In this document: positions 942 to 60,770 of the stretch, in pieces
How positions within the stretch are numbered: the stretch's first letter is position 1
Layout of the letters: every line of letters starts with the position of its first letter
NCBI RefSeq assembly: GCF_017104565.1
Contig: NZ_JAAGPD010000002.1
Coordinates: forward strand, 62,001 to 126,000
From: Paraburkholderia sp. Tr-20389
Lineage (GTDB): Bacteria; Pseudomonadota; Gammaproteobacteria; Burkholderiales; Burkholderiaceae
Reading direction: 5' to 3'
Length of the DNA stretch: 64,000 nt
Notes under the pieces: model-generated
What the model saw: the letters and a program-made list of their open reading frames with translations, nothing else
What the model was told of the DNA's origin: nothing
Database searches by the model: none
Translations under genes and position numbers: made by a program

Positions 942-955
942 TTGACTCAGGTCAA
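942..955. promoter_or_regulatory. FNR box, shared by two divergent genes
   Basis: TTGAC-TCAG-GTCAA, a perfect palindrome. A TATGGT hexamer (915-920) sits 21 nt away on the DUF2252 side and CACCAT (977-982) 21 nt away on the outer-membrane-protein side, so the box could serve both genes. Confidence 0.85.
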
Positions 956-1060
956 CGCTTCGAGAACCTGAAGATTCACCATAAGCGCGGATTTCTTCGC
1001 GATGGCCTCAGTTGTGAATGAATGCGGTCGGTATCAAACTGGATTCACCCGAGGATACCC

Positions 1061-2041
1061 ATGGCAGCTGATTACCGATTCGCGGCGCAGTCACGCGCAA
1101 GCCCAACTCGTGGTACATCGTGTTCGTTCCGCGCGCGCGACTGGCGCGCAACGTCCGTCGCTTCGTGCTTTTTCCTCATCGTCATACAGGTATCGGCTCA
1201 GGAACTGGAGCCGCGCGCGTATTCGCCCGCACCGGTGGGCACCAACTTTATTGGACTCACCTATTCGTGGCTGGGTGGGCAGGTCCTCGTCGATCCGTCG
1301 CTTCCCATCAGCGATGTCCATGCACACATCAATTCCGCGTCCGTTGGATACGTGCACGTATTCAATCTTGCCGGCCGCGCCGCTTCGCTTGCACTGCGTG
1401 CGCCTTTCATCAGCGGAGACATCTCCGGCAACGTCTTCGACGCACCCAATCAGGTGCATCGCGCCGGTCTGGGCGACCTCCGCTTCAGGCTTTCGATCGA
1501 TCTTCTTGGTGGTCCTGCGCTGACACCGGAAGAATTCGCGCGCCGCACACCGGACACCATCGTCGGCACGAGCCTGATGGTCATTGCGCCGACGGGACAA
1601 TATGAATCGGCACATCTCGTGAATGTTGGCAGCAATAGGTGGGCGTTCAAACCGGAGTTCGGCATTTCGCAGCCGCTCGGCAACTGGTTCGCGGAAGCAA
1701 CAGCAGGCGTTTGGTTTTTCACGGACAACACGTCGTTTCTCGGTGGCAAGCGACGTGGTCAGGCGCCGCTCGGCGTGCTCCAGTTGCATGGCGGATACAT
1801 GTTCCGCCCTGCTCTGTGGTTGGCTGCCGATGTGGGCTTCTATACCGGCGGTGCGACTTCCGTCAACGGGATCACGAACGACGACTCTCAAAACAATGCG
1901 CGCTATGGGCTTACGCTTTCACTTCCGGTTACGCGCGACTGGTCAGCCAAACTCGCCGTGTCGAATGGATTCATGGTCAGGGCCGGAGGAAACTACAAGT
2001 CAATCTCACTGACATTGCAGTATCGATGGTTCAACCACTAG
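1061..2041 (+). CDS. Outer-membrane transporter-like protein
   Basis: 326 aa from ATG 1061, preceded by GAGGA at 5 nt; an upstream in-frame ATG at 1022 lacks a comparable ribosome site. There is a long positively charged N-terminus, then a hydrophobic segment ending SAQ, consistent with an export signal. The rest has alternating aromatic/polar strands and a final aromatic segment (LQYRWF) typical of outer-membrane beta-barrels. It resembles the putative phenol meta-pathway/transporter barrel family, judged from pattern only. Shares the FNR box at 942-955 with the DUF2252 gene. Substrate unknown. Confidence 0.7.
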   Translation: MAADYRFAAQSRASPTRGTSCSFRARDWRATSVASCFFLIVIQVSAQELEPRAYSPAPVGTNFIGLTYSWLGGQVLVDPSLPISDVHAHINSASVGYVHVFNLAGRAASLALRAPFISGDISGNVFDAPNQVHRAGLGDLRFRLSIDLLGGPALTPEEFARRTPDTIVGTSLMVIAPTGQYESAHLVNVGSNRWAFKPEFGISQPLGNWFAEATAGVWFFTDNTSFLGGKRRGQAPLGVLQLHGGYMFRPALWLAADVGFYTGGATSVNGITNDDSQNNARYGLTLSLPVTRDWSAKLAVSNGFMVRAGGNYKSISLTLQYRWFNH

Positions 2042-2120
2042 GCATTCGTAGCAAAGTCTCGCTATTCACAGCTTTACTTTCTTCCGCGCGATCTCTGAAC
2101 CTCGAAACCCAGACCATCCA

Positions 2121-2134
2121 TTGACCAAAGTCAA
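2121..2134 (+). promoter_or_regulatory. FNR box upstream of arcD-arcA
   Basis: TTGAC-CAAA-GTCAA, with a TATGCT hexamer at 2156-2161 (21-nt spacer). Start codon of arcD is 186 bp downstream. The 2042-2319 gap holds nothing else I can recognise. Confidence 0.88.
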
Positions 2135-2319
2135 CTGACAACCTTCGACCGTTCCTATGCTGAGTATGCGTGAAGAGTCCATCCCGTCGGCGGTAAATGA
2201 CGGCATAAGTCGGACGAACAGGCGCGCATTCTGGTCCGCAGCACACGACGGTCGCTGTTCAATTCGTTGAACAGCACGGATCCTGGTTGCGGATTCCAAT
2301 CAGGTGAAGGAGAGGTTAC

Positions 2320-3801
2320 ATGTCTGATTCAGTATCCCAACCGGCATCCGGCTCGCAAGCGGGTCCGTCTATCACTTCCGCCGCCGCTCCCAAACTGCAT
2401 CTCGGTGCACTGACCGCGCTGGTGGTGGGCTCGATGATAGGAGGCGGCATCTTCTCATTGCCGCAAAACATGGCTGTCAGCGCCGGCGCGGGAGCGGTGC
2501 TGATCGGATGGGCGATTACCGCAGTGGGCATGCTGACGCTGGCCTTCGTGTTCCAGACGCTCGCGAATCGAAAACCAGAACTGGATGGCGGCGTCTATAT
2601 CTATGCAAAGCAGGGTTTTGGCGACTATATGGGTTTCTCGTCGGCCTGGGGCTACTGGATCAGCGCATGGCTCGGGAACGTCGGCTACTTCGTCCTGCTG
2701 TTCGGCACTTTCGGCTATTTCTTTCCGGTCTTCGGCGAAGGTAATACACCCGTCGCGATTGCCTGCGCCTCCGTGTTGCTGTGGGGCGTTCATTTCCTCG
2801 TTCTACAGGGCATCAAGGAAGCGGCGTTCGTCAACATGGTCACGACCATCGCCAAGGTTGTACCGATCGTTCTGTTTATCGTGATCTGCGCATTTGCGTT
2901 CAACGCACACTTCTTCACGAATGACTTCTTCGGCTTGAATACACCAAAACTTGGAAGCGTAGCGAATCAGGTACGAGGCTCAATGCTCGTGACAGTCTGG
3001 GTTTTCATCGGCATCGAAGGCGCGAGCATCTTCTCTGCGCGCGCAGAAAAACGGACGGATGTCGGCAAGGCGACGATCATGGGATTCATCGGCGTACTGC
3101 TCGTTCTCGTACTCGTCAACGTGCTGTCGCTCGGAATCATGTCGCGCCCCGATCTTGTCGCGCTGCAAAACCCGTCGATGGCCGGGGTACTCGAGCGTGT
3201 CGTGGGTCACTGGGGTGCAATTCTGATCAGTGTCGGCCTCGTCATCTCGCTGTTGGGCGCCCTGCTCTCGTGGGTCTTGCTTTGCGCCGAGATCATCTTT
3301 TCGGCTGCGCGGGACAGCACGATGCCGAGCTTCGTTCGCAAGGAGAATGCGAAGAAGGTTCCAGCGAATGCACTGTGGCTTACCAACGGTCTGACGCAGG
3401 CTTTCCTGCTCATCACGCTTTTCTCGAAAGGGACCTACCTCTCGCTGATTTATCTGGCGACCTCGATGATTCTGCTGCCTTACTTCTGGTCTGCGGCCTA
3501 TGCGTTGCTCGTCGCATGGCGCCGTGAAACTTATGAGCAGGAGCCCGTTCAACGCAACAAGGACCTGATGATTGCTGCCATTGCAGTGATCTATGCCGTA
3601 TGGCTGCTCTATGCCGGAGGACTCAAGTACGTGTTGTTGTCGGCGCTTTTATACGCGCCCGGCGCCGTACTTTTTGCCAAGGCAAAGCGCGAAACTGGAC
3701 AACGCGTGTTCACCCTTGTCGAAAAGCTGGTCTTTGCGGCGGTCGTGATGGGTGCACTGGTTGCGGCATTCGGCCTTTACAAGGGTTTCCTCACGCTCTG
3801 A
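2320..3801 (+). CDS. arcD: Basic amino acid antiporter, arginine/ornithine type
   Basis: 493 aa, start preceded by AAGGAGAGG. It is an APC-superfamily permease: the first transmembrane helix carries the GSMIGGGIF signature (residues 33-45), and about 12-13 hydrophobic helices follow. The gene ends 16 bp before arginine deiminase in the same direction, the usual arcD-arcA pairing, so exchange of external arginine for ornithine or citrulline is the probable role. Located in the inner membrane. Expression should follow the FNR box at 2121. Substrate is inferred from the neighbour and the family. Confidence 0.88.
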
Positions 3802-3817
3802 TGACAGGAGACACATG

Positions 3818-5136: not shown

Positions 5137-5457
5137 GTGCTGTTCATGGGTCGCGGCGCTTTATTTCACAGAGCCAGCATCGAGTCGATCCGCAGGCGTC
5201 TGCTCCTCACATGCAGATGATCGGCTGGATTCAGGAACACGTTGCACACGCTCTCCAGTTCGAGTTCGAGCGATTGCTCTGGCGTTCTGAGGCTCGCAAG
5301 TGCACGTGAATTGTTCTCGATCTCTGCATGGAAGCAGGCCTGCCACGTTTGACTTGTATCAATGCGGATACGAGGTCGCCGGAATGCACGCGTGCATTGA
5401 AATGGTTCGCTCAATTTCCATCGTGGCAGAACAGAGATTGCCTGTATGCAACAGTCA

Positions 5458-8208: not shown

Positions 8209-8314
8209 CCTTGTTTCCTCCATGAGGGTGACGTGAACGGCAAGCAGCCGGAAATCCGGCCGCCATGAACCGTCAACGCATAAGCGAATCTTCGACTGGC
8301 GCGGCCGCTTTCAA

Positions 8315-8328
8315 TTGATCGATATCAA
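8315..8328 (-). promoter_or_regulatory. FNR box upstream of the CBS-BON gene
   Basis: TTGAT-CGAT-ATCAA, a perfect palindrome. GAAGAT (8288-8293) begins 22 nt downstream in the gene direction. Confidence 0.85.
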
Positions 8329-8424: not shown

Positions 8425-8438
8425 TTGACACACGTCAA
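8425..8438 (+). promoter_or_regulatory. FNR box without an obvious adjacent gene
   Basis: TTGAC-ACAC-GTCAA. On the plus strand CTTAAT (8460-8465) begins 22 nt downstream. The nearest plus-strand gene is the LOG-family gene at 9100, about 660 bp away. The stretch 8439-9099 has no open frame I can support on either strand: candidates are arginine-rich and lack ribosome sites. It may be a long leader, a small RNA or a decayed gene. Confidence 0.75.
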
Positions 8439-10565: not shown

Positions 10566-10579
10566 TTGACGCATATCAA
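10566..10579 (+). promoter_or_regulatory. FNR box upstream of mgtA
   Basis: TTGAC-GCAT-ATCAA. CAAGCT (10601-10606) begins 22 nt downstream, a weak match to a -10. The box overlaps an in-frame ATG at 10579, which argues that translation starts later, at 10639. Confidence 0.78.
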
Positions 10580-10638
10580 TGGCTCGCGGTTGGCGTGCAC
10601 CAAGCTCTGTAATTGTCTATGACGAAAGCGTGCTCGCG

Positions 10639-18036: not shown

Positions 18037-18120
18037 GGCAACGTCCTCCTGATGTGCTTCCGTTCGCGAACTGAACACCCAGTTCACACGGTCAGACTAA
18101 TCCGCACACATCCCGCGCGG

Positions 18121-18134
18121 TTGATCGAAGTCAA
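18121..18134 (-). promoter_or_regulatory. FNR box for the BON-ppsA-pfkB operon
   Basis: TTGAT-CGAA-GTCAA, with TAGTCT (18094-18099) beginning 22 nt downstream on the minus strand. Confidence 0.88.
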
Positions 18135-18186: not shown

Positions 18187-18200
18187 TTGATAACGATCAA
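18187..18200 (+). promoter_or_regulatory. FNR box for the tandem Usp gene
   Basis: TTGAT-AACG-ATCAA, with GAGAAT (18222-18227) beginning 22 nt downstream. The start codon is 62 bp from the box. It is back-to-back with the box at 18121, so the divergent units have separate sites. Confidence 0.88.
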
Positions 18201-18262
18201 TCGAAAGGGCTCTTTTCGAAGGAGAATCGATGTAATCCTCTCGCCCGATACGGAGAAGCATC

Positions 18263-22399: not shown

Positions 22400-22458
22400 T
22401 GCCAACTCCACAGACAACTTTTACTGACATCAAGCTAACACTCGCATTGGGCATGCGA

Positions 22459-22472
22459 TTGACCCAGATCAA
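22459..22472 (-). promoter_or_regulatory. FNR box for the P-type ATPase operon
   Basis: TTGAC-CCAG-ATCAA, with TAGCTT (22432-22437) beginning 22 nt downstream on the minus strand. Confidence 0.87.
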
Positions 22473-22536: not shown

Positions 22537-22550
22537 ATGACCTAAGTCAA
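22537..22550 (+). promoter_or_regulatory. Imperfect FNR box for the beta-CASP nuclease gene
   Basis: ATGAC-CTAA-GTCAA, one mismatch at the first base. TGCAAT (22572-22577) begins 22 nt downstream. Start codon 59 bp from the box. Confidence 0.62.
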
Positions 22551-25861: not shown

Positions 25862-25923
25862 CGTCGTTCGGTTGATCGCGCTAGTGACCCATGCCTACGT
25901 TACGCGGGCATGGACTCGAACAC

Positions 25924-25937
25924 TTGACCTGCGTCAA
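25924..25937 (-). promoter_or_regulatory. FNR box for phaC
   Basis: TTGAC-CTGC-GTCAA, with TAACGT (25897-25902) beginning 22 nt downstream. Located between the 79-aa gene and phaC, so phaC is an independent unit. Confidence 0.88.
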
Positions 25938-26986: not shown

Positions 26987-27000
26987 CTGATACAGATCAA
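26987..27000 (-). promoter_or_regulatory. Imperfect FNR box for the second BON gene
   Basis: CTGAT-ACAG-ATCAA, one mismatch at the first base. No good -10-like hexamer at the position used by the other sites. Confidence 0.6.
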
Positions 27001-27092
27001 GCGTGCGGGTCTTCCCCGCGTTAACCTGACACGCGTCTTTTCCGCAGACCCGCGCTCTGGAAAGTCGCAAGACAATCCACATCGCAATGCGC

Positions 27093-27106
27093 TTGACTGA
27101 AGTCAA
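27093..27106 (+). promoter_or_regulatory. FNR box for the nitroreductase gene
   Basis: TTGAC-TGAA-GTCAA, with TATCCT at 27129-27134 (22-nt spacer). Start codon 90 bp from the box. Confidence 0.87.
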
Positions 27107-28637: not shown

Positions 28638-28743
28638 CGAATCGCTCCTGCTCCGATGGAAGATGGTGACTGCCATCCCGCTTTCACGATTTGCTGCATC
28701 GTGAAGTCACGCTTTCAGCGTAGCCGCACCCGGCACCGCGCCG

Positions 28744-28757
28744 TTGATTCATGTCAA
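28744..28757 (-). promoter_or_regulatory. FNR box upstream of hsp20
   Basis: TTGAT-TCAT-GTCAA, with TACGCT (28717-28722) beginning 22 nt downstream. This predicts a transcript start near 28710 and a leader of about 200 nt before hsp20. Confidence 0.85.
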
Positions 28758-30892: not shown

Positions 30893-30906
30893 TTGATGCA
30901 GATCAA
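30893..30906. promoter_or_regulatory. FNR box between divergent ftsH and groEL
   Basis: TTGAT-GCAG-ATCAA, the only box in this gap. On the groEL side TTAAAT (30929-30934) follows with a 22-nt spacer; the ftsH side has no good hexamer at the usual place. It may serve one or both genes. Confidence 0.85.
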
Positions 30907-35917: not shown

Positions 35918-36086
35918 ACGCGTCGTACAGGTCTTCTTCTCGCAGCGACCGCGCGCCAAAATGATCTTCGAGCGCTTCTGCCGTAATCGCACATTGCACG
36001 GACTGGTGATCGACGAGCGCAGGAAACGTCAACACGAGGTCTCGCGCGCAATAGTCAGGGCGACAGCAAGGAAACGATATTTGCAT
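35811..36086 (-). CDS. DUF1488 family protein
   Basis: 91 aa from ATG 36086 (GGAG at 8 nt). The block V-Q-C-A-I-T-A-E-A-L-E-D-H-F-G-A followed by L-x-x-A-F-x-x-x-R-x-x-I-x-x-x-A-R is the DUF1488 pattern; function unknown. The FNR box at 36150-36163 with TAATCT 21 nt downstream supports this strand. The 3' end overlaps the convergent fusion-protein gene by 107 bp. Confidence 0.8.
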   Translation of the reverse strand: MQISFPCCRPDYCARDLVLTFPALVDHQSVQCAITAEALEDHFGARSLREEDLYDAFTAHRPDIEVAARRMLNEVGGNPVLLHSGYFRFCT

Positions 36087-36149
36087 GGCAACGACTCCAC
36101 ATGGACGCAAAAGCACAACCCCAGATTAGCCCCACGCTTGCCCGTCCAT

Positions 36150-36163
36150 TTGATACACGTCAA
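36150..36163 (-). promoter_or_regulatory. FNR box for the DUF1488 gene
   Basis: TTGAT-ACAC-GTCAA, with TAATCT (36123-36128) beginning 22 nt downstream on the minus strand. Confidence 0.87.
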
Positions 36164-36195: not shown

Positions 36196-36209
36196 TTGAC
36201 CTGCATCAA
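36196..36209 (+). promoter_or_regulatory. FNR box for the 147-aa protein gene
   Basis: TTGAC-CTGC-ATCAA, with AACGAT (36231-36236) beginning 22 nt downstream. Confidence 0.83.
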
Positions 36210-36297
36210 TGCCGTCTGTCCGGCGCATGCAACGATTGATGTGAGGTCTTCAAGACGTCGAAGGCTCACGAGTTCCATAGGCGGATGGGGTGCACAG

Positions 36298-41707: not shown

Positions 41708-41808
41708 GGTGAAAGCCTCCTTGAAATATTCCTGCACCACGACTCGCCGCGCTCCATCACGCGTCGCATGGCATGTTTCTTATCTTCGGTGCTTGCGCGG
41801 ATACGCGC

Positions 41809-41822
41809 TTGACTTGAATCAA
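41809..41822 (-). promoter_or_regulatory. FNR box for the Usp/exporter operon
   Basis: TTGAC-TTGA-ATCAA, with GAAGAT (41782-41787) beginning 22 nt downstream. Confidence 0.83.
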
Positions 41823-41874: not shown

Positions 41875-41888
41875 TTGACGTGCCTCAA
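41875..41888 (+). promoter_or_regulatory. Near-perfect FNR box for the phasin-like gene
   Basis: TTGAC-GTGC-CTCAA, one mismatch. TACAGT (41910-41915) begins 22 nt downstream; start codon 70 bp from the box. Confidence 0.75.
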
Positions 41889-41957
41889 CGGATTGAGGCG
41901 TGGCCGTCATACAGTCAAACGGGACAGCACAGTTCCCGAATCGAACAGGAGACACGG

Positions 41958-42374
41958 ATGGATACCTTTTCGCCCGAGCCCTTCGGCTCCGCAACGATGC
42001 AGGCGCTCGCGCTGGCCAACACCGAAGCGTTCGCAAACTGGATGGCGCTCTGCCAGGAAACATGGGTGCGTGCGGCGGCCGTTCGCAATCCGCTCGAATA
42101 TGCCGCGATTGGAAGCTTGATGTTGCCTGCCTGCGCGTCCCAGGCGATGCTGTATTGCAAGCGCATTTCGGACATCGCGGCGTGCGCGCAGGCGGCGAGC
42201 GTGCCGCATCCTGCCCCGGGGATCTCTACGCCCGCATCCGCCATCGAAGTGCCAGTAAGCACCTTATCGAACTCCACCGTGACGGATTCTCCCGACGTCA
42301 CGCATGCGCAAACGCCGTCCACCCGAGGTGCTGCCAAACGATCGATACCCGTACCGCGTTTTCGCGGCGAGTGA
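41958..42374 (+). CDS. Phasin-like protein
   Basis: 138 aa; CAGGAG lies 7 nt before ATG 41958. The N-terminal 85 residues form amphipathic helices with R-N-P-L-E-Y-A-A-I and P-A-x-A-S-Q-A-M-L-Y-C-K, resembling granule-binding phasins of Burkholderiales. The C-terminal 50 residues are Pro/Ser/Thr-rich and probably disordered. Likely coats PHB granules. The assignment rests on pattern and on phaC, phaZ and phaB in the window. Confidence 0.55.
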   Translation: MDTFSPEPFGSATMQALALANTEAFANWMALCQETWVRAAAVRNPLEYAAIGSLMLPACASQAMLYCKRISDIAACAQAASVPHPAPGISTPASAIEVPVSTLSNSTVTDSPDVTHAQTPSTRGAAKRSIPVPRFRGE

Positions 42375-43227: not shown

Positions 43228-43355
43228 TGTGCGATGGGAAGAACGAAGCGGACTATGCACTGGGCCGGTACGCCGTCAACGAGACAGAGCGGTCCGGCGG
43301 ACAAGTTGAAGTGGTGTCTCCGCCTGTCAGGCTATGCTACGTTTCGATGCAGGCC

Positions 43356-43369
43356 TTGACACAGATCAG
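43356..43369 (-). promoter_or_regulatory. Near-perfect FNR box for the ion channel gene
   Basis: TTGAC-ACAG-ATCAG, one mismatch at the last base. TAGCCT (43329-43334) begins 22 nt downstream. Confidence 0.75.
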
Positions 43370-43863: not shown

Positions 43864-44316
43864 TCAGCGGTTTCCTTTCACCCATACGTGAAATTCCGCC
43901 TCGGCCGATTCGATCGACCTGGCGCAGGTCGAATACAGCAGCCCCGCGCCGCCGTCGCTGTCATACATGCCCCGGCACATCGCCTTGAGACGAATGACGA
44001 TATTGCCCGCATCGTCGGCGCTTTTCGAGGCCGCGAGATAGACGAAGCCAAACGCATGTGGAAATGCGGTCTGGATCGCCGAGTCATCTGCCTGCACGAT
44101 CCGCGTTGCCGAGTGTGTCTGGACGAACGTCCGGGTTCGCACCCATGCCTCGTCGCAAGCGGCCGTCGTTGCGCACGCGATGCTGGCCTCCTGGCGAGCA
44201 CGGAAAAGTTCGACCTCCTCGTTTCGGAACGCCGCATCCCGGGATGCCGTCGAGCACGCGATCAGCAGTATCGAACCCGACAGAGCGGCACACAGCAGGA
44301 CTGGAGCATGCGTCAT
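43864..44316 (-). CDS. Small lipoprotein coupled to the N-ATPase operon
   Basis: 150 aa from ATG 44316, overlapping the atpG stop by 4 bp (ATGA). Signal peptide with lipobox LLIAC (Cys21). The mature part has six further Cys and a helix-rich pattern; family not recognised. Its position as the tenth gene of the atp operon is not part of the usual N-ATPase set. Upstream open frame within atpG is rejected because it has no lipoprotein start. Confidence 0.75.
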   Translation of the reverse strand: MTHAPVLLCAALSGSILLIACSTASRDAAFRNEEVELFRARQEASIACATTAACDEAWVRTRTFVQTHSATRIVQADDSAIQTAFPHAFGFVYLAASKSADDAGNIVIRLKAMCRGMYDSDGGAGLLYSTCARSIESAEAEFHVWVKGNR

Positions 44317-45194
44317 GACACATCCTTCCCGCTTGCGCTCCCCGGCACCGGAGCCGCCGCGACCGCGAGTTCGACGATTTCGGTGGTGATCTCGTCCTGG
44401 CGGACGATGCGAGCCTCGCGCGTCAGCGCTTTCAATGTTTCGCCGACGTGATCGCTCGCCGCGAGCATCGCCGTCATGCGCGCCGCGTTTTCCGCAGCAA
44501 AAGACAACATGAGACCTTCGCATAGCTCGACATACACGTAACGCTCGGCGAGCCCGGTCAACATCTTGTCTATCGGCAACATGAGCAACGGTGGCCGCAC
44601 ACGTGACGCAATCTTGAAACGGTCGAAATCGAACGGCACGAGCCGCCTCGTCACGACCGCCAACTGCGCCCCTTGCGCCGGCAACGCATGTATCAGCCAT
44701 ATCGCCGATGCGGGATGCGCTTCAAAGCGCGCAAACACGGCATCGCTGATGCGCCCGGCCACACGCATCACGTCGTCGGCATGACTGGCCATCGGCACGG
44801 ACCAGTCGTACGCGAGTCCTCGTTCATCAGCCAGCACCGCACCGCGCGTGCCGACCACGAACAGAGCAGCCGCCTCACGCGACGGCCAGCTTTCGACGCG
44901 CTCCAGCAGCCGCTCGTTGAATCCGCCGACAAAGCCCTGCTCCGTACAAAGCACGATCAGGACGGGGGCCAGGTGGCGCTCCCGCAGAGAATCGTGGGGG
45001 TCTTGATGTGCAGTTGCCGCGAGCACCATGCCGATCGCCTCGCCAACCGTCGCCGCGACAGAACGTATCCCGGCGAGCCGCGCCTGCGCCTCGCGCTCGC
45101 GCGCCGCTGCGATCCCTCGCATCGCGCCGATCACGGCATCCAGTTGATGGGCGGTTGCCATCCGGCCTTCGATTTCACTGAGCCGGCTGGTCAT
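44313..45194 (-). CDS. atpG: N-type ATPase gamma subunit
   Basis: 293 aa from ATG 45194 (AGGAG at 7 nt). N- and C-terminal helices of the F1 rotor ([11 protein letters not shown]... and [31 protein letters not shown]) bracket a Rossmann-like middle. More divergent than the housekeeping gamma, as usual for N-ATPases. Overlaps atpA by 20 bp. Confidence 0.9.
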
Positions 45195-46752
45195 CGGCGT
45201 GCTCCTGTCGGGCAAGGTCGCCTGCCGAACCCGGTTTCGCGCGTTCGACGATTTCCCGTACGAGATCGATCAGGCGCTGACGCAGCGCATCGTCGAGCGG
45301 CGCCGAAAGCGCTTCGGCATCGTGTGTGTCACCCGCCAGCCGATGCGCTGTACCGGATGCGACGAGTCGCTGCCGCACCTGTGCAATCGCCTCGACGGAC
45401 ACGCCGTCGAACAGGCCGTCAGCCAGCGCGGAGAGCAACGCGACCTGATCGATGCCACGTAGCGCGCTAAAGCGCGGCTGCGCGAACAGCGCACGGATGC
45501 GTCTGCCTCGCTCGACCTGCGCGACCACGCGGGTGTCGGCGAGCCCGCCGAAGCGGCTGAACACTTCCAGTTCGAGAAACTGCGCATAGTCGAGCCGCAA
45601 GCGGCCCGCTACATCGCGCAGCGCCGGATATTGCGCCTTCCCGCCCACGCGGCTCACGCTCAGGCCGACGTCGACGGCAGGTCGCTGATTGGCCGCGAAC
45701 AGGCCCGCGTCGAGCACGATCTGGCCATCCGTAATCGAAATCAGGTTGGTCGGGATGTAGGCGGACAGATTGCCGGCGTCGGTTTCGGCAATCGGCAACG
45801 CCGTCAGCGAGCCGCCTCCCAGATCCGCAGAGAGCCGGGCCGCACGTTCGAGCAGACGCGCATGCAGATAGAAGATATCGCCCGGATAGGCCTCGCGCCC
45901 CGGCGGCTCGCGTGTCAGCAACGCGAGTTCGCGATGCGTGGCCGCGTGTTTGGTCAGATCGTCGATGACGATCAATGCGTGCTGCCCGCGATCCCGAAAG
46001 AACTCCGCTATCGAGAAGCCGGCAAACGGCGCGATCCATTGCAATCCAGGCGGCGAGGCCGACGATGCCACCACGAAGACGCAGCGCTCGGGCGCGCCGT
46101 ATTGCCGTATCGCATCGATCGCGCGCTGAACGGCCGTCGCACGTTGACCGATCGCGACGTAGATGCAGATCACGTCGCTATGTCGTTGATTGACGATCGT
46201 CTCGATTGCAAGCGAAGTCTTGCCGGTCGCGCGGTCGCCGATAATCAGTTCCCGCTGTCCTCGCCCGATCGCAAACAACGCATCGACGACCAGCACACCT
46301 GTTTCGAGCGGCTCGCTGACGAAGTCCCGCTCGACGATGGCGGGCGCCGGGCGTTCGATGGGTAACCGGCTTTCCGTTCTGATCGGTTCGCCGCCGTCGA
46401 GCGGCCGTCCCAGTGGATCGACCACGCGACCAAGCAACGCATCGCCGACGGACACGTCGAGCACGGTATGGCGGGGCGTCACGCGCATGCCCGCCTGCAC
46501 GGAGCCGCTGCTATCGAGCATGACGACACTCGCGACGTCCACGTCGAGCGAATGCACGTAGCCCGTGACGCCACTCTCGATGTCGACCAGTTCATCGAGC
46601 GCGACGTCGGGCAGGCCCGACACGAAAGCGATGCCGTCGGCGATGCGCTCCACGCGGCCCATCGCGATCGCGGGCGTTTCCAGCTCGATCGCCGCGAGCG
46701 CGCTGCGCTTGCAGGCCAGCCAGCCATCGTTCGTGTCGTCAAGCGTGTGCAT
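45175..46752 (-). CDS. atpA: N-type ATPase alpha subunit
   Basis: 525 aa. P-loop GDRATGKT, a ring-interface Arg region, and the alpha-specific [17 protein letters not shown] signature (S-V-S-R-V-G). Catalytically silent nucleotide site in F1. Overlaps atpF by 14 bp and atpG by 20 bp. Order in the operon (after atpF, before atpG) matches N-ATPase clusters. Confidence 0.95.
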
Positions 46753-47482
46753 CGTCGTTCAGCAACCCGTTGTGAACCTGCTGCAGTTGATCGCGCCAGC
46801 TGTTGCGCACGATGCCATGCCGGCCGCCCAGTTCGAGTCCCGCGACCAGCGTGCCGTCGATTCGCGTGTGCCACGCGACAGCATGTCCGAACGCGGCGGA
46901 AAGCGCGACCTCGCACGCGCGCTGCTCGTCGGCCGTCAGTGCGCGCGGCGCCGTCAATTCAAGCGAAGCGTCCCCGGTCAACTCCTGTCGCGCCGCCGAA
47001 GAAAGCCGGTTCACGCCGTCTACGAGTCCGTCGATGAAAGGCTCTACCCGTATCGAATCGGGCATGCGCGCCAGCAGCTTGCACGCGATGTCGACGGCCA
47101 GCCGGACAGCACGCGCGGATGCCTCGTCGGCCAACGCGGCACGGTCGCGTTGTATTTCAACGATGGCCTCGGCGCGCAGTCTGTCGGCGTCTTCATGCGC
47201 CGCCGCGAGCAGCGCGTCGCGCTGCTCGCTCGCGTCGTGTTCGATCTGCGCAAGGGCGTCGGCTCTTCGCGCGGCAAGCTGCGCACGCTCGGCCGTCATC
47301 GAGTCGAGTTCCTTGCGGGCAGCGAGCTTCGCGGCTTCCGCATCGCCGATGAGTGCCCGCGCCGCGGCCTGGCGCTCCGCTATGATTCTGGCGACGGGAC
47401 GGAACAGGTAGCGCTGCAGCAGCCACAGCAGCACCAGCAGATTGACCGTCTGCAACGCCAGCGTCGACCAGTCGATCTTCAT
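46739..47482 (-). CDS. atpF: N-type ATPase b subunit with delta-like C-terminus
   Basis: 247 aa. One N-terminal membrane helix (about 8-28), a long charged coiled coil (about 35-140), and a C-terminal domain of about 90 residues ending [15 protein letters not shown] that looks like the F1-binding part of delta. No separate delta gene exists in the operon, so this fused stalk subunit supplies that function, as in other N-ATPases. Confidence 0.9.
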
Positions 47483-47489
47483 CGCCGCG

Positions 47490-47735
47490 TCACTTCACGA
47501 AAGGATTGGCGAACAGCAGAAGCAACGCGACCACGAGGCAGTAAATGGCCATCGTCTCGATCATCGCGAGGCCCACGAACAGCGTTCGGGACAACGTGCC
47601 CGCAGCATCGGGCTGCCGCGCAATCGCGTCCATCGCGGCCGCCACAGCACGGCCCTCCGCAAGCGCCGGACCTATCGCGCCGAACGACACAGCGAGTGCC
47701 GCGGCGGCAATGCTGATGATTTCGATCACATTCAT
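47490..47735 (-). CDS. atpE: N-type ATPase c subunit with Na+-type ligand set
   Basis: 81 aa hairpin of two membrane helices joined by the ARQPDAAG loop. Aligned by eye with the Na+-binding Ilyobacter c subunit, E27 takes the place of Gln32, and E60, T61 and Y65 match the Glu65, Ser66 and Tyr70 ligands. This supports Na+ rather than H+ binding, as proposed for N-ATPases generally. Start overlaps the atpB stop by 4 bp. Confidence 0.93.
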
Positions 47736-48430
47736 GCATGCTCCTTCTGGTTATTGTCAGCCGGATGCCTCGTGTCGCCGACGGCCGCGCCGATGAACAC
47801 CATCGCGAGCACGGCGAAGATGTAAGCCTGCACGGCGCCCGTCAGCAGATCGAGCGCCATCAGCGGAATCGGCACGAGCAGGCCCGCGAGCGACAACACG
47901 ATGCCGATGACGAACACACCGCTCATCACATTGCCGAACAGGCGCACGACAAGCGAAAAGGTTCGCGTGAGCTGTTCGACGATATTCAACGGGATCATCA
48001 CCCACGTCGGCTCGGCGAAGGTAGCGAGGTATCCGCGCACGCCACGCGAGCGAACGCCGTACGCCACTGTCGCTAGCAGCACGAGCAAGGCAAGCGCGGC
48101 ATCGGTTTCCAGATGTGCCGTAGGCGGCTCGACGCCTGGCACGAGCGACGACCAGTTGGCGACCAGCACAAACAGGAAGAGCGTGCCGATCAGCGGGCGA
48201 TACGAGGCAGGATCGGTTTGCATGGTGTCGCGAATCTGGGCATCGATGGTTTCGACCAGCAGTTCGAGTACCACCTGCACTCTGGAGGGCGCGATGGCCA
48301 GCTTGCGCGTCAGCAGCGCAGCGCCGATCGCGAGGCTCGCAACGATCGCCCAGCCGACGATCACGGGCGCGCTGATCGCGATCGGCCCGACATGCAGAAG
48401 GGGTTCGGTGGTCAATGGCGAATGGATCAT
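47732..48430 (-). CDS. atpB: N-type ATPase a subunit
   Basis: 232 aa from ATG 48430, overlapping the atpR stop (ATGA). Five to six membrane helices; the essential stator Arg is in [12 protein letters not shown], and the last helix follows [10 protein letters not shown]. Forms the ion half-channels opposite the c ring. Confidence 0.93.
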
Positions 48431-48720
48431 GGTTCGGCTCGCCGGAGTGTGAGCGCGATGCAGCGCGTCCACATGAAGCCGCCCGATCCGCCGAGCAAGA
48501 CCAGCACGCCCGCCTTCGCCAATACGACGAACACGGCCGCCGTCAGCGCGAAACGCGACAGTTGCAGCAGCAGCGCACCGAACGGGCGCCCTGCAACGAA
48601 GAGCGCGGCGTTCCTGCGCAGCGAGGCGAAGTGCACTGCGCCCACCAGCAGCCCGACTGCGAGCCCGGCGACGAACAGCGCCAGTGCACTGTGCAGATGA
48701 GCGAAAGCGGCATCAATCAC
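48427..48720 (-). CDS. atpR: N-ATPase-specific AtpR membrane protein
   Basis: 97 aa, three predicted membrane helices, with Arg residues (S-L-R-R-N) after the first. AtpR occurs only in N-ATPase operons and is thought to help assemble the c ring or stabilise it. Overlaps atpQ by 8 bp. Confidence 0.85.
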   Translation of the reverse strand: MIDAAFAHLHSALALFVAGLAVGLLVGAVHFASLRRNAALFVAGRPFGALLLQLSRFALTAAVFVVLAKAGVLVLLGGSGGFMWTRCIALTLRRAEP

Positions 48721-49027
48721 GATCTCTCCTTTGCTGCCGATGCATCCATTTCCATGCCGACCAGAATCCGATCGCTGCGCCGAGCATCAGAAGCGGCGCT
48801 GAGAAAAACACTCGCGTTCCCATCAGCCGGTCAAGCCAGCGACCCAGCGCGAGGCCGACAAGCGTCGGCAACACGATCGTCCAACCCAGAATGCCGATCT
48901 GCCCGAGCCGCGCGGCGAGAGACGGTTCCCGGTCTTCGCGTCCCATCGCGTCGCGATTCGCGGCGCGCCGGGCTGCTTTGGCGACGGGATCGTCCGGTGT
49001 GGCGTGTCCGTTCCGCTGCCTCGTCAT
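48713..49027 (-). CDS. atpQ: N-ATPase AtpQ (AtpI-like) protein
   Basis: 104 aa with a charged N-terminus and two membrane helices (about 44-62 and 74-92); AtpI/AtpQ family, linked to c-ring assembly. Overlaps atpC by 4 bp (ATGA). Confidence 0.85.
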   Translation of the reverse strand: MTRQRNGHATPDDPVAKAARRAANRDAMGREDREPSLAARLGQIGILGWTIVLPTLVGLALGRWLDRLMGTRVFFSAPLLMLGAAIGFWSAWKWMHRQQRRDRD

Positions 49028-49455
49028 TCGGGTACTCCGCGCGCCATTTGTGGACGCAGGTAACGCAACATCTGCCGAACAGCATGAGCGTGCAGGCGTG
49101 TCTGCTCGACACGTGCTCGCCGCATCGCATCCAGTTGTGCCGCACGTACGTCGTGCACCTCAGCCTCCAGCCGTGGAAGCGACTCGCCCGGCACCGCTTC
49201 CCGGCATGCGATCGACACGGCCGCGCCGTTCGACACGATCAGCACGCCGCCATCCACGGCGCAAAAATGCGCGATGCCATCCGGCGTGATCCACCTCACG
49301 ACGGAAGCGCTGAGGAGCGTCACCATGTCCTCATGTCCGACGTGAATGCCGAATCCTCCGCCTTCGTCTTCCGCGCGCAACGAGGCGATCGGCAAGCCAT
49401 CGACCACGACCTGCGCCGGTGTCGCGATGGTCAAATTGAGCGATACGTCCGTCAT
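49024..49455 (-). CDS. atpC: N-type ATPase epsilon subunit
   Basis: 143 aa. N-terminal beta-sandwich (P-A-Q-V-V-V-D-G, G-x-x-G-I-x-x-G-H-x-D-M-V) and a C-terminal helical arm. Located directly after atpD as in N-ATPase clusters, 12 bp gap. Central stalk subunit. Confidence 0.9.
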   Translation of the reverse strand: MTDVSLNLTIATPAQVVVDGLPIASLRAEDEGGGFGIHVGHEDMVTLLSASVVRWITPDGIAHFCAVDGGVLIVSNGAAVSIACREAVPGESLPRLEAEVHDVRAAQLDAMRRARVEQTRLHAHAVRQMLRYLRPQMARGVPE

Positions 49456-49467
49456 GGGCGCACCTCC

Positions 49468-50946
<1,479 letters not shown>

Positions 50947-51005
50947 TTATGCTCCACACCGAATTCCTGAACCCTTTCAAGATAACGGCCGGCGCCTTGT
51001 CACAA

Positions 51006-51019
51006 CTGATCCTGATCAA
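51006..51019 (-). promoter_or_regulatory. Near-perfect FNR box for the N-ATPase operon
   Basis: CTGAT-CCTG-ATCAA, one mismatch at the first base. TATCTT (50979-50984) begins 22 nt downstream. Confidence 0.78.
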
Positions 51020-51085: not shown

Positions 51086-51099
51086 TTGACAGCGATCAA
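51086..51099 (+). promoter_or_regulatory. FNR box for the LemA-like gene
   Basis: TTGAC-AGCG-ATCAA, with TACGCT (51121-51126) beginning 22 nt downstream. Back-to-back with the atp box. Confidence 0.87.
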
Positions 51100-51162
51100 T
51101 CCGATATGTGCGGACCCGTCTACGCTCGATCTGATGGACAACACACCGGGAGCACGGTCGAC

Positions 51163-53340: not shown

Positions 53341-53421
53341 GATCCATGCTCCTTATGGAGAGCGGTCCGTGAGTCGGCACACGCTTCGATGTCCACTCTA
53401 GTCGCGCGTACTACATCGCGA

Positions 53422-53435
53422 TTGACATGTATCAA
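53422..53435 (-). promoter_or_regulatory. FNR box for the phasin/phaB operon
   Basis: TTGAC-ATGT-ATCAA, with TAGAGT (53395-53400) beginning 22 nt downstream. Confidence 0.88.
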
Positions 53436-53458: not shown

Positions 53459-53472
53459 TTGATCTGCATCAA
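53459..53472 (+). promoter_or_regulatory. FNR box for the three-gene Usp operon
   Basis: TTGAT-CTGC-ATCAA, with TAGACT (53494-53499) beginning 22 nt downstream. Confidence 0.88.
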
Positions 53473-53553
53473 CGGACATGGCCGACCGGGTCATAGACTC
53501 GATTGCACCACGGGCACTGCCCGTCAATCCGCCTTCCATCGGGAGTCACGGCG

Positions 53554-56362: not shown

Positions 56363-56449
56363 GATGAGCCTCCAGTCGCGATGCACGGGCTACTGAAACA
56401 GCAGCGAAGCTGCATGAATTGCAGTGTGTTACTGCGCCCGGTTCGCTGA

Positions 56450-56463
56450 TTGACTCAGGTCAA
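56450..56463 (-). promoter_or_regulatory. FNR box for the Usp gene at 55895
   Basis: TTGAC-TCAG-GTCAA, identical to the box at 942. CACACT (56423-56428) begins 22 nt downstream. The rest of the gap, 56464-56735, has no recognised element. Confidence 0.84.
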
Positions 56464-56735: not shown

Positions 56736-57380
56736 ATGATCAAGGTACTGTTGGCCGATGACCATGCGCTCGTACGCGACGGCTTGCGCCACATTCTCCA
56801 GAGCGCCAGCGGTTTCGAAGTGTCCGGCGAAGCATGGGACAGCATCACCACCATCGCGCTCATTCGCTCTACGCAAGCGCAAGTGCTGGTTCTCGACCTG
56901 ACCATGCCCGGTCGCAACGGCATCGAACTCATCAAGCAGATCAAGGACGAGCAACCCGCCTTACGCATTCTCGTGCTGACCATGCACGCCGAGCAGCAGT
57001 ACGCGGTGCGCGCATTCAAGGCAGGCGCATCCGGATATCTCACGAAGGAAAGCGCAAGCGTGGAACTCGTCAACGCCGTCACGAAGATAGCTGGCGGAGG
57101 TGTGTACATCAGCCTGGCGATGGCCGAACGCCTGGCGCAAACCCTGAACGAGCCGGTGGAGGCCCTACCGCATCAGCGGCTCTCGGACCGCGAGTTCGAT
57201 GTCTTCAGACGAATCGTCGCCGGTCAGAGCATTACGGAAATCGCTCATGAACTATGTGTGAGCGTAAAGACCGTTAGCACGCACAAGACACGCGTACTCG
57301 AGAAAATGCAGTTGCCAAATGAGAACGCACTCGTACGTTATGCGATTCGTTACAAGATCATCGAGGACGACGAGCTGTAA
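56736..57380 (+). CDS. NarL/UvrY-type LuxR-family response regulator
   Basis: 214 aa. Receiver domain with DD (8-9), phosphoacceptor D54 (VLDLTMPGRNG) and Lys near 104. A C-terminal LuxR HTH follows at about 148-205 (LSDREFDVFRRIVAG...VSVKTVSTHKTRVLEKM). It is the natural partner for the HisKA_3 kinases at 5458 and 62995. No FNR box upstream. Located just before fnr, so the two may form a local control node. Confidence 0.93.
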   Translation: MIKVLLADDHALVRDGLRHILQSASGFEVSGEAWDSITTIALIRSTQAQVLVLDLTMPGRNGIELIKQIKDEQPALRILVLTMHAEQQYAVRAFKAGASGYLTKESASVELVNAVTKIAGGGVYISLAMAERLAQTLNEPVEALPHQRLSDREFDVFRRIVAGQSITEIAHELCVSVKTVSTHKTRVLEKMQLPNENALVRYAIRYKIIEDDEL

Positions 57381-57424: not shown

Positions 57425-57549
57425 GCTGCCCTACCTCCTATCTCCTCTTAAAGCACCGCCGATACTTTTTTGCGATACGAGCGCCGATACTTGATTCATC
57501 GCTAGTCGCCGCGCACATGCGCGCGCAGACGAGGATTGAGGAGACAAAG

Positions 57550-58332
57550 ATGCTTGCCGCAAACACGTTGACTTCCAATCAAGTCTCGGGCCGCGCCGCC
57601 GCGGTCATTCCAATCCGGCCAGTGCAACACAGCGATTCGCCGCGTCAAGGGACGACACGTTGCTCGTCGTGCTCGATGCGCTCGATCTGTATGCCGCCAG
57701 ATCTGAGCGCCGAAGATCTGGCGAAACTCGATACAGTCATCTGCTCAACGAAGGCCGTTAAACGCGGAGACACGTTGTATCGCGCCGGCGACTCTTTCAA
57801 GAGCATCTACGCGATACGGGCTGGATCGTTCAAAACGGTCGTCATGCACCGTGACGGTCGCGAGCACGTGACAGGATTCGAGATCGCGGGCGAAACGCTT
57901 GGCCTCGATGGTGTCTGTGCCGGCCAGCACAACTGCGACGCGATTGCGCTTGAGGACAGTGTCGTCTGCATCATTCCGTTCGCGCAGCTCGAGATCATCT
58001 GTCGCGAGGTGAAATCCATGCAGCATCACATCTATCAGATGATGAGCGGCGAAATCGCGCGGGATTCCGTGCAAATGATGCTGCTCGGCACCATGTCGGC
58101 AGAGCAGCGCGTGGCGACGTTCCTTCTCAATCTCTCCAGGCGCTTCAAGGCGCGCGGATTCTCGGCCGCTGAATTCCACTTGCGCATGACACGCGAGGAA
58201 ATCGGTTGCTACCTCGGAATGAAACTCGAAACCGTGAGCCGCATGTTTTCGAAATTTCAGCGTGGGCATCTCGTCCATGCCAACGGAAAGACGGTTCGGA
58301 TCGTCGACCCGGAAGGGCTCGCGAACGTATGA
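57550..58332 (+). CDS. fnr: FNR-type oxygen-sensing CRP-family regulator
   Basis: 260 aa from ATG 57550 (GAGGAG at 6 nt). Cluster cysteines C38, C41, C47 (C-x2-C-x5-C) and C140; the 93-residue distance from the third to the fourth equals that in E. coli FNR (C29 to C122), so a [4Fe-4S] switch is expected. A cyclic-nucleotide-binding fold follows, then an HTH with MTREEIGCYLG and E-T-V-S-R, the residues that read TTGAT half-sites. No FNR box precedes it, so it is probably not self-activated by the motif it reads. Likely activator of most units in this window. Confidence 0.95.
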   Translation: MLAANTLTSNQVSGRAAAVIPIRPVQHSDSPRQGTTRCSSCSMRSICMPPDLSAEDLAKLDTVICSTKAVKRGDTLYRAGDSFKSIYAIRAGSFKTVVMHRDGREHVTGFEIAGETLGLDGVCAGQHNCDAIALEDSVVCIIPFAQLEIICREVKSMQHHIYQMMSGEIARDSVQMMLLGTMSAEQRVATFLLNLSRRFKARGFSAAEFHLRMTREEIGCYLGMKLETVSRMFSKFQRGHLVHANGKTVRIVDPEGLANV

Positions 58333-58409: not shown

Positions 58410-58423
58410 TTGATTTGCCTCAA
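58410..58423 (+). promoter_or_regulatory. Near-perfect FNR box for the Acg-like operon
   Basis: TTGAT-TTGC-CTCAA, one mismatch. CACGAT (58445-58450) begins 22 nt downstream; start codon 78 bp from the box. Confidence 0.75.
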
Positions 58424-58500
58424 GGATGAGTCGCTGTGACATGCCACGATAAACACAAAGCGAAGGACGTGCACGTCGTACTGGCAAAGGAATATCTCAC

Positions 58501-59532: not shown

Positions 59533-59567
59533 TGGGAAATCACCAGAATCGAAGAGGAGCGTCTACC

Positions 59568-59912
59568 GTGAGCCATCCCAGTTGGTCCATCCTGATTGCC
59601 TTCACCTCAGGTCTCTTCGCTGTCGGACTGAACACGGCCAATGCGCGCGTCGATGAACCGACCGAACTAGTCGATCAACAGCATTGCATGTTCTGTCACA
59701 CGTCGGATGCGCCCTTTCTTGCGCCGTCGTTTCGACAGATCGCTGACCGCTATCGGGATGTTCCCGATGCGAGGGCGATGCTGGAAATCAAGCTCAGAAA
59801 AGGTGGCCGTGCGCATTGGGGGGACACGCCCATGCCACTGCCGCCCGAACGCGGCGGTCCGCTGTCCGCCGAAGACGCACATAAGCTGGTCGAGTGGGTG
59901 ATGTCGCAATGA
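59568..59912 (+). CDS. Small monohaem c-type cytochrome
   Basis: 114 aa from GTG 59568 (GAGGAG at 8 nt); ATG 59532 is possible but precedes the ribosome site. Signal peptide (about 1-26), haem site CMFCH, and a probable Met ligand in T-P-M-P-L-P-P. Class I cytochrome c size. Periplasmic electron carrier. 35 bp after the Acg-like gene, so probably the same transcript. Confidence 0.87.
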   Translation: MSHPSWSILIAFTSGLFAVGLNTANARVDEPTELVDQQHCMFCHTSDAPFLAPSFRQIADRYRDVPDARAMLEIKLRKGGRAHWGDTPMPLPPERGGPLSAEDAHKLVEWVMSQ

Positions 59913-59955
59913 GTGTTTCAACGTTTTTACGCCTTTGCCGATCAGGGAGATACCA

Positions 59956-60324
59956 ATGAGAATTACCGTTCACCTCGATACATTTCAATGCGCTGACGCA
60001 GCTTATGCCGTTCTTTGGCTCGACCGCGAATCGCGTAAATGGTCACGGGAAGGACATGCAGTGATCGATCTGCCGGAATGGGGAAGCCTGGCGTCCCCGA
60101 AAGGAAACACGCGCATTCATGGCGCCGACCATGACCGTGCAATCTGTGAACTCACGGGACTCGATCTCGGCTCCGTCAGCGTTCCGAGTGAGGGCGAGTC
60201 GGGGCAAGCGTTGTGGTACCGCCATGCTCATCACGCGCCGATCATCGGTAAGTGGCACATTCAATGTGTCGATAACACCGAATCGGACCCGGAGAACGGT
60301 GTGTTCGCCGAGGGTGGCCTCTGA
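59956..60324 (+). CDS. 122-aa protein of unknown function
   Basis: 122 aa; GGGAG lies upstream of ATG 59956. Soluble, four Trp, four Cys and several His (H-x2-D-H, Y-R-H-A-H-H), so metal binding is conceivable. Third gene after the Acg-like protein and the cytochrome. Convergent with the HPF-like gene, 23 bp apart. Family not recognised. Confidence 0.7.
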   Translation: MRITVHLDTFQCADAAYAVLWLDRESRKWSREGHAVIDLPEWGSLASPKGNTRIHGADHDRAICELTGLDLGSVSVPSEGESGQALWYRHAHHAPIIGKWHIQCVDNTESDPENGVFAEGGL

Positions 60325-60347
60325 AACTGCGTCTTCCCGTAGACGTG

Positions 60348-60668
60348 TTACTGCCTCCGCTGCTTCGTCGTATTCTCGGTCGCCTGAAGCTCCTTTTCCG
60401 CGGCATCGAACGCAGAGCGGACAGCCTGTTCCGCATCTTCGCTCGAACAATGTTCGATGGGTTTGAGGTCGCGTGTGCGAGTGATCAGATCGAGGCGAAC
60501 GTCATAGGTTGGTCTGTCCGACCGCGAATGAATCTGCTCGATTGCCAGATGGCAATTTGAAAGAAGTCCGCTGTACCGTTCCAGCCGCACCAGTTGCGCG
60601 GCAGCCTCGCCTTCCAGCCGCGCCGTCCCACAGAAGCCTAGATAGACGATCTGCATGCCAATGCCCAT
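60348..60668 (-). CDS. HPF/RaiA-like ribosome-associated protein
   Basis: 106 aa from ATG 60668 (GGAGG at 5 nt). The pattern M-Q-I-V-Y...L-V-R-L-E-R-Y...I-E-Q...Y-D-V-R-L-D-L...E-D-A-E-Q-A-V-R-S-A-F-D matches the beta-alpha-beta fold of hibernation-promoting factors: a helix, three strands, and the D-x-x-x-A-I/V-x-x-A-F/I-D helix. It lacks the long C-terminal dimerisation domain. Probably helps store inactive ribosomes under anoxia. FNR box 89 bp upstream. Assignment by fold pattern only. Confidence 0.65.
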   Translation of the reverse strand: MGIGMQIVYLGFCGTARLEGEAAAQLVRLERYSGLLSNCHLAIEQIHSRSDRPTYDVRLDLITRTRDLKPIEHCSSEDAEQAVRSAFDAAEKELQATENTTKQRRQ

Positions 60669-60756
60669 CTTCGCCTCCGTCCGATGTTCAAACTCAACGC
60701 GCCTTGCCAATCGCTTGTGTCACCCTGACATCATCGCGTGCGCCGGACTGCCGTCG

Positions 60757-60770
60757 TTGACTTGTATCAA
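60757..60770 (-). promoter_or_regulatory. FNR box for the HPF-like gene
   Basis: TTGAC-TTGT-ATCAA, with GATGAT (60730-60735) beginning 22 nt downstream. The 260 bp from here to the kinase at 61031 contain no other recognised element. Confidence 0.84.

Follow-up and report, generated by a model that had tools for sequence, protein, structure and literature searches.

The low-oxygen-activated (lxa) locus of Burkholderia cenocepacia comprises 50 genes that are upregulated in low oxygen (PMC9733578, PMC4505428). Here we describe a related locus in a 64,000-nucleotide window of the soil bacterium Paraburkholderia sp. Tr-20389 (genome 9.0 Mb; window G000:C32:62001-126000, its first letter being position 1), in which FNR boxes, scored as TTGAYN4RTCAA, stand at a fixed distance from a promoter-like hexamer. 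Islands of the lxa type are already a known kind of system, and this window is a further, enlarged member. It very probably holds most of an enlarged low-oxygen survival island in which most transcription units carry their own class II FNR-family promoter. An earlier note on this DNA had read the boxes as a single regulon of class II promoters, and our analysis supports that interpretation overall.

Several other described systems bear comparison. The DosR regulon of Mycobacterium tuberculosis is scattered over its genome, and its reader is a response regulator that recognizes another DNA motif. Its 48 genes include 10 for universal stress proteins, alpha-crystallin and phosphofructokinase are in common, and a likeness between this regulon and lxa has been drawn (PMC6127331). 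Herbaspirillum seropedicae has three Fnr orthologues; several cysteine-bearing Fnr proteins have targets in common, fnr1 has a class II site, universal stress proteins are among the strongly induced Fnr targets, and the parts of the study covered here describe no comparable dense island (PMC5934665). Most induced genes of Sphingopyxis have an Fnr box whose centre lies at -41.5 or close to it (PMC7713065).

FNR boxes and the 21-nucleotide spacing

The window contains 21 perfect boxes and nine with one mismatch, which corrects an earlier tally of 20 and six. Dinucleotide shuffles of the window (n = 100) yielded a mean of 4.83 sites (perfect and one-mismatch pooled; standard deviation 2.09; maximum 12), and none of the 100 reached 30. 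Genome-wide we found 54 perfect boxes compared with 14 matches for a reversed-pattern control. Of these boxes, 21 fall within the window, which makes up 0.7% of the genome, so that their density there is about 89 times that elsewhere. With 14 control matches genome-wide, some boxes outside the window will be chance occurrences; of the 33 outside boxes 29 were examined, and six of these are intragenic.

The earlier statement that the boxes always lie between genes holds for 28 sites but fails for two of the nine one-mismatch sites, which sit within the genes for phosphoenolpyruvate (PEP) synthase (14467) and atpA (45962). The remaining 28 form the base set for all geometry counts. Four further sites are overlapped by the open reading frame (ORF) calls g08, g28 and g48 (weak), which we judged spurious. 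An Rfam scan of the window at gathering thresholds returned no matches.

The recurrence of boxes at a fixed spacing from a hexamer is confirmed. Exactly 21 nt past the box, 22 of the 28 sites read nAnnnT and 14 read TAnnnT, updating the previously reported 21 and 13 of 26. Among the 21 perfect sites, 17 carry nAnnnT and 10 carry TAnnnT at this offset in at least one orientation; the corresponding numbers for the seven one-mismatch sites outside genes are five and four. For the 21 perfect boxes, read in both directions (42 orientations), we scanned every offset between 5 and 49 nt. TAnnnT appeared at offset 21 in 10 of 42 orientations (binomial p = 2e-17 versus a window background of 0.26%) and at each other offset in none or one. 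The looser nAnnnT appeared at offset 21 in 18 orientations and at other offsets in 0–4. Through their hexamers, 22 of the 28 sites point to a gene, operon or open frame. In five divergent gene pairs each gene has its own oriented box (18121/18187, 36150/36196, 41809/41875, 51006/51086 and 53422/53459).

The earlier note had proposed comparing the density of the composite motif in and outside the window, and equal density was not found. The genome has 18 copies of a perfect box followed by N21 and TAnnnT, and the window accounts for 10 (0.156 versus 0.0009 per kb, about 174 times denser). The other eight lie at C19:305-309 kb (two), C19:639-646 kb (three), C32:57 kb, C32:126.6 kb and on C51. 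Both C32 sites, 5 kb left of the window and just right of it, belong to the island's own flanks. The claim of one regulon across the window is too narrow in extent, with composite sites also in these flanks and in two C19 clusters.

The E. coli promoters nirB and narK are class II FNR promoters, and both have exactly 21 nt between the box and TAAGGT. The 21-nt spacing is the canonical class II geometry; the window differs from such promoters in having about 22 of them within 60 kb. We also considered whether the boxes double as -35 elements. This was rejected because the box begins 35 nt ahead of the hexamer and because the spacer columns of 96 aligned sites from relatives show no -35 consensus.

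Conservation in relatives and in the lxa locus

When a 22-kb DNA query was compared with the plasmid collection, it came closest to Paraburkholderia caribensis, which matched 76% of it at 87%. We drew a footprint from 19 window sites with nAnnnT at 21 and their 37 aligned copies in P. caribensis (13), PGU19 (14), LEh10 (7) and E7m39 (3), relatives that are close and give aligned pairs that are not independent. Left out were the two intragenic sites, the six without nAnnnT at 21, and 22459, 28744 and 43356, for which there was no full alignment; the first hexamer base was scored merely as same or not same as in the window. Box arms were unchanged at 296 of 296 positions, as were the hexamer A and T at 74 of 74. 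The spacer was identical at 589 of 777 positions (76%) and contained no indel columns. By comparison, 72 indel columns fell in the 45 upstream nucleotides, which were 70% identical, and 26 in the 18 downstream nucleotides, which were 77% identical. For one pair (L040 at 51006) the aligner placed 11 gap columns inside the box, a consequence of a local duplication that leaves the box itself intact. Spacer letters drift while spacer length stays fixed, as selection on a protein-DNA distance predicts.

The same geometry recurs more widely. Around 73 FNR-type genes from genome contigs, nearly all of Burkholderia and Paraburkholderia with one Bordetella metagenome-assembled genome, there are 194 perfect boxes versus 0, 4 and 1 matches for three altered control motifs. 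Near these genes lie 374 distinct oriented sites, in which TAnnnT stands at offset 21 in 96 cases, at 22 in 11 and at 20 in two; other offsets have 0–3, except 42–43 (14 in total). The 96 sites share the -10 consensus TA[CGT][AG]CT. A matrix trained on 168 such sites from relatives gave 28 window matches of at least 10 bits and none in the reversed window. Across 118 same-genus genomes there are 699 composite sites versus 13 for the reversed pattern, with counts per genome from 0 (36 genomes) to 29 and at least 10 in 35 genomes. Box-rich genomes are therefore common, not universal.

B. cenocepacia has these promoters too. In NCTC13227, which we take to be J2315, box-N21-nAnnnT occurs at 21 places in the genome, 14 of them within a 44-kb stretch of the lxa region. 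Fifteen perfect boxes lie in 58 kb of this region, and 13 of the 15 have nAnnnT at 21. We identify the region as lxa because its run of stress protein, DUF1488, Hsp20 and BON genes corresponds to BCAM0276, 0277, 0278 and 0280 (PMC6127331). Of the 64 window gene calls, 31 match the B. cenocepacia pieces searched (E<=1e-8), some of them at the level of a domain or a paralogue, and 27 of the 31 match best in the lxa region, which bears out the resemblance first noticed in the window. Among the literature matches listed, which do not cover the 2013 paper describing lxa, we found no FNR motif for lxa in print. One Anr box is named, at the cytochrome bd cluster (PMC9104464).

Window and lxa share universal stress proteins, DUF1488, Hsp20, nitroreductases, BON proteins, polyhydroxyalkanoate (PHA) synthase, acetoacetyl-CoA reductase, a beta-CASP nuclease, FtsH, a PfkB-family kinase, a response regulator and FNR, as well as the same box-N21-hexamer promoters. 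Even the hexamer letters are kept between the two genera for Hsp20 (TACGCT), nitroreductase g58 (CACGAT) and stress protein g52 (TAGACT); the box of the g58 counterpart in B. cenocepacia overlaps another ORF call. Beyond lxa, the window has an arginine antiporter and deiminase, PEP synthase, a Mg-type P-type ATPase, GroEL, a polyhydroxybutyrate (PHB) depolymerase, an ion channel, LemA and an F1Fo ATPase operon of putative alternate type. None of these additions matched the B. cenocepacia pieces searched, and the comparison covers those pieces rather than the whole genome. Gene order differs between the two loci, and the window FNR falls among those of other Paraburkholderia, away from the lxa FNR.

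The regulator, the proposed mechanism and its rivals

The window encodes an FNR-type regulator at 57550..58332 (+), in an ORF open from 57517, with a C-x2-C-x5-C cluster, a fourth cysteine and LETVSR. Its CSSCSMRSIC segment and VVC cysteine align with the FNR regulator chains 9qll and 5cvr, its recognition helix E-x-x-S-R is present as LETVSR, and it scores 233 bits with the NCBIfam Fnr model (cut-off, 228). The numbering C38/C41/C47/C140 given in the earlier note fits the gene read from 57550. The genome encodes six HTH_Crp_2 proteins above cut-off, at least three of which (in the window, on C19 and on C40) are FNR-type with the same cysteine cluster and ETVSR. In view of these paralogues, the window FNR is a candidate reader of the boxes, one of at least three: a regulator with four cysteines and ETVSR is indeed encoded in the locus, and naming it the reader went too far.

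In a tree, the window FNR and two near relatives nest in the Paraburkholderia C19-type FNR clade (100/99), apart from the B. cenocepacia lxa FNR; deep forks of this tree are tentative, and some branches are long. By tblastn, the window FNR matches the lxa FNR at 68% and the C4 FNR at 64%. Judged by sequence, it is a close paralogue of the C19 copy. A NarL/FixJ-type response regulator (56736..57380, +) lies just upstream of the FNR gene, an order common to the window and B. cenocepacia, and PAS kinases are also encoded in the window. No class II site is aimed at the response regulator or FNR gene in either the window or B. cenocepacia. Box 56450, beside these genes (56736-58332), faces the other way and points to a universal stress-type protein, as the box beside the regulator genes does in B. 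cenocepacia.

We infer FNR binding, an oxygen response, transcript starts and an acting FNR paralogue, in the following scheme. As oxygen drops, a [4Fe-4S] FNR protein would gain DNA binding, and its dimer would occupy TTGAYN4RTCAA, with 21 nt between the box and the downstream -10 hexamer, placing the box centre at about -40.5 or -41.5. Bound FNR would replace the -35 element and recruit sigma-70 RNA polymerase. About 22 units (some 45 genes by operon grouping) would thereby be switched on together, among them universal stress proteins, Hsp20, PHB synthesis, arginine deiminase, PEP synthase, nitroreductases, BON proteins, ion pumps and the extra F1Fo ATPase. GroEL and FtsH would share one box that departs from the 21-nt rule. 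The boxes, their spacing, conservation and enrichment, and the sensor and reading residues of the regulator are features of the sequence itself.

How else might the boxes be explained? Their number and likeness, and the 14 genome-wide matches to the reversed pattern, would fit a repeat family or a composition artefact. Yet the common letters are limited to the arms and the hexamer, whereas the inner N4 and the spacer vary among sites and drift between species without spacer indels, and the three altered control motifs gave 0, 4 and 1 matches versus 194 boxes in relatives' loci. We rejected this explanation on the shuffles, control motifs and footprint, and its probability is close to nil. CRP-family relatives share TTGAT-type half sites, which counts for a reader outside the FNR group: a DNR/nitric oxide-type or FixK-type protein could bind the boxes, with nitric oxide or a phosphorelay rather than oxygen as the signal. 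The response regulator and PAS kinases in the window and the six HTH_Crp_2 proteins in the genome fit such a reader. It is nevertheless improbable, given that all four FNR cysteines are present in the CRP-family protein encoded by the island itself and that the homologous B. cenocepacia island is oxygen-responsive (PMC9733578, PMC4505428).

A much stronger rival concerns which FNR acts. The chances are nearly even that the main reader of the boxes is a different FNR paralogue, from C19 or C40, acting alone or together with the window copy and possibly below a FixLJ-type two-component system, with the window FNR as a modulator. Three paralogues have an identical cysteine cluster and ETVSR helix, and the C19 FNR, close paralogue of the window copy, also sits in a box-rich cluster. 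In addition, B. cenocepacia H111 is without lxa (PMC3759415), anr2 (BCAM0049 type) matters for anoxic survival in that strain (PMC9104464), and B. dolosa fixK is driven by FixLJ (PMC5234846). Against this, the window copy lies in the densest box cluster, the order of response regulator and FNR gene is kept in B. cenocepacia lxa, and low oxygen induces the lxa FNR itself, BCAM0287, 17-fold (PMC4505428).

Several observations weigh against reading the window as an lxa-type island with a class II FNR promoter for most units. Six of the 28 sites, including the groEL/ftsH box, are without nAnnnT at 21, and box 5349 is not upstream of any called gene and fits none. The ATPase-operon box (51006) has one mismatch, the predicted leader of the P-type ATPase gene g17 (19318-22035) is long (about 390 nt or more), and no box with up to one mismatch lies within 450 bp of the window FNR gene. 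Behind promoter 41875, a 138-amino-acid ORF has an 18-nt deletion ahead of its start codon in PGU19, and in P. caribensis the promoter aligns but the frame does not. Full TAnnnT follows at 21 in just five of the 15 boxes of the B. cenocepacia lxa region. Seven E. coli K-12 promoters were compared: nirB and narK fit the strict form, while dmsA, narG, nrfA, fdnG and ansB are without TAnnnT at 21 after a perfect box. Because these five do not show it, 21 nt is no law. The class II claim nonetheless stands, the spacing being real, enriched in the locus, conserved in relatives and present in the B. cenocepacia lxa region. What had been called a promoter logic is a real geometry, but it is ordinary class II, nothing new as logic, and missing from the six sites above.

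We tentatively suggest, as a possibility short of even, that Burkholderiaceae hypoxia islands are modular, each gene arriving with or acquiring a pre-set class II FNR promoter of near-invariant 21-nt spacing. If so, an island could gain or lose units such as the ATPase, arginine deiminase and PEP synthase between species and stay one oxygen-controlled regulon. The present reading would turn a "stress island" into a quantitative prediction of about 22 promoters with one measurable geometry, and would make the composite motif a sequence rule for finding such islands.

Individual predicted promoters, their genes and other box loci

Site coordinates below run from box through hexamer, with the strand giving the direction. 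At 915..955 (-) a box with TATGGT faces g01 (DUF2252), with CACCAT on the + side toward g02. A box with TATGCT at 2121..2161 (+) is directed at the arginine-ornithine antiporter (2320-3801) and arginine deiminase (3815-5074), one with GAAGAT at 8288..8328 (-) at the CBS-BON protein (7516-8208), and one with CAAGCT at 10566..10606 (+) at the Mg-type P-type ATPase (10783-13308). Site 18121 (TAGTCT, 18094..18134, -) faces the BON protein, g14, PEP synthase and PfkB-family kinase (13371-18036); its partner 18187 (GAGAAT, 18187..18227, +) faces a universal stress protein (18263-19228). Site 22459 (TAGCTT, 22432..22472, -) points to the P-type ATPase (19318-22035), a box with TAACGT at 25897..25937 (-) to the PHA synthase-family gene (24005-25705), a one-mismatch box with TAACCT at 26987..27027 (+) to a nitroreductase (27142-27864), and site 28744 (TACGCT, 28717..28757, -) to Hsp20 (28071-28508).

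Further right, sites 36150 (TAATCT, 36123..36163, -) and 36196 (AACGAT, 36196..36236, +) face a DUF1488 gene overlooked by the gene caller and g29 (36298-36741), respectively. Site 41809 (GAAGAT, 41782..41822, -) is aimed at a universal stress protein and exporter-like genes (36790-41740; FtsX permease, ABC and HlyD-like, with g30 outside the scan). The one-mismatch site 41875 (TACAGT, 41875..41915, +) precedes the 138-amino-acid ORF, the one-mismatch site 43356 (TAGCCT, 43329..43369, -) an ion-channel protein (42388-43227), the one-mismatch site 51006 (TATCTT, 50979..51019, -) the ATPase operon, and site 51086 (TACGCT, 51086..51126, +) a LemA-family protein (51163-51777). Site 53422 (TAGAGT, 53395..53435, -) faces g51 and acetoacetyl-CoA reductase (52098-53340). 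Opposite it, site 53459 (TAGACT, 53459..53499, +) faces three universal stress-type proteins (53554-55743), named via blast to B. cenocepacia counterparts and by eye. Site 56450 (CACACT, 56423..56463, -) leads toward a universal stress-type protein named by eye (55895-56362), and a one-mismatch box with CACGAT at 58410..58450 (+) toward nitroreductase, cytochrome c and DUF3564 genes (58501-60324). Site 60757 (GATGAT, 60730..60770, -) is directed at a short protein (60348-60668, -). This protein, under a conserved box, matches Pfam S30AE, a ribosome hibernation family, at 23.5 bits, borderline to the cut-off of 23.7.

Six sites are without the 21-nt hexamer. A perfect box at 5349..5362, unoriented, lies between convergent genes; it has the same letters as box 60757 and no aligned copy in the relatives searched. 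The perfect box at 8425..8438 has CTTAAT at 21 on the + side and possibly serves g09, and the one at 27093..27106 has TATCCT at 22 on the + side. One-mismatch boxes lie at 22420..22433, without nAnnnT at 21, and at 22537..22550, upstream of a beta-CASP nuclease-family gene (22609-23973) and with TGCAAT at 21 on the + side. The perfect box at 30893..30906, without nAnnnT at 21, lies between ftsH (28862-30823, -) and groEL (31000-32622, +); on its + side, CTTAAATAG is kept in two relatives.

Two promoters were aimed at no called gene, and we therefore found open frames that the caller had missed. Site 36150 is aimed left at a frame encoding a DUF1488 protein (E 8e-23; 35811..36116, -; 101 amino acids as listed, probably with an internal ATG start), whose B. 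cenocepacia counterpart is 68% identical. Promoter reading thus improves gene calls here. After reading the conserved promoters we dropped gene call g28 (36126-36278) and regard g35 (41915-42301, minus) as probably wrong. The 138-amino-acid ORF (41958..42374, +), which competes with g35, has no Pfam match. AGGAG stands ahead of its ATG, and its start and stop codons are conserved in PGU19; from the sequence it is only likely to be a real gene.

The F1Fo ATPase operon has nine genes (44313..50943, -) in the order beta-epsilon-AtpQ-(AtpR?)-a-c-b-alpha-gamma. Of the N-type subunit models, epsilon TIGR03166 and ATPase gene 1 TIGR02230 score above cut-off. Alpha, beta, a, b, c and gamma hit their alternate-type models at scores short of the cut-offs, and the AtpR candidate matches no model. 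N-type ATPases place atpD and atpC at the operon front. Beta and then epsilon lead this operon, as expected of that order, in which atpD and atpC precede the rest. Its box at 51006, followed by TATCTT, is conserved in three relatives. The promoter ties the extra operon to likely oxygen control. The genes atpD and atpC are described as the exception to the usual order in N-type ATPases, whose cellular function is called largely unexplored; the words oxygen and anaerobic are absent from the main text (PMC5376962). If hypoxia islands are modular as suggested above, the extra ATPase would serve energy metabolism at low oxygen, and this enzyme type would have a role.

Boxes also cluster elsewhere. 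A second, smaller cluster at C19:631000-650000 of the same genome has its own FNR gene and homologues of window genes for universal stress proteins, a CBS-BON protein, a nitroreductase, a kinase and an S30AE-like protein. At C32:186000-197000, about 64 kb right of the window, near-copies of g55 (81%) and g59 (86%) flank a box oriented to the g55 copy. On C15 (L005:6517) a perfect box without nAnnnT at 21 lies upstream of a hemN-like gene, hemN being a usual FNR target. In relatives, 15 sites have the hexamer 42–44 nt past the box, a class I distance. Twelve of the 15 represent a single recurring promoter whose hexamer, TATGCT or TACGCT, lies farther from the box by two helical turns; it is found in L092, L094, L096-L098, L107 and L108 (about 11.5–13.6 kb) and in L049, L050, L052, L054 and L099 (about 13–20 kb). 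Downstream of it, three of the four loci read have a frame that by eye resembles zinc alcohol dehydrogenase.

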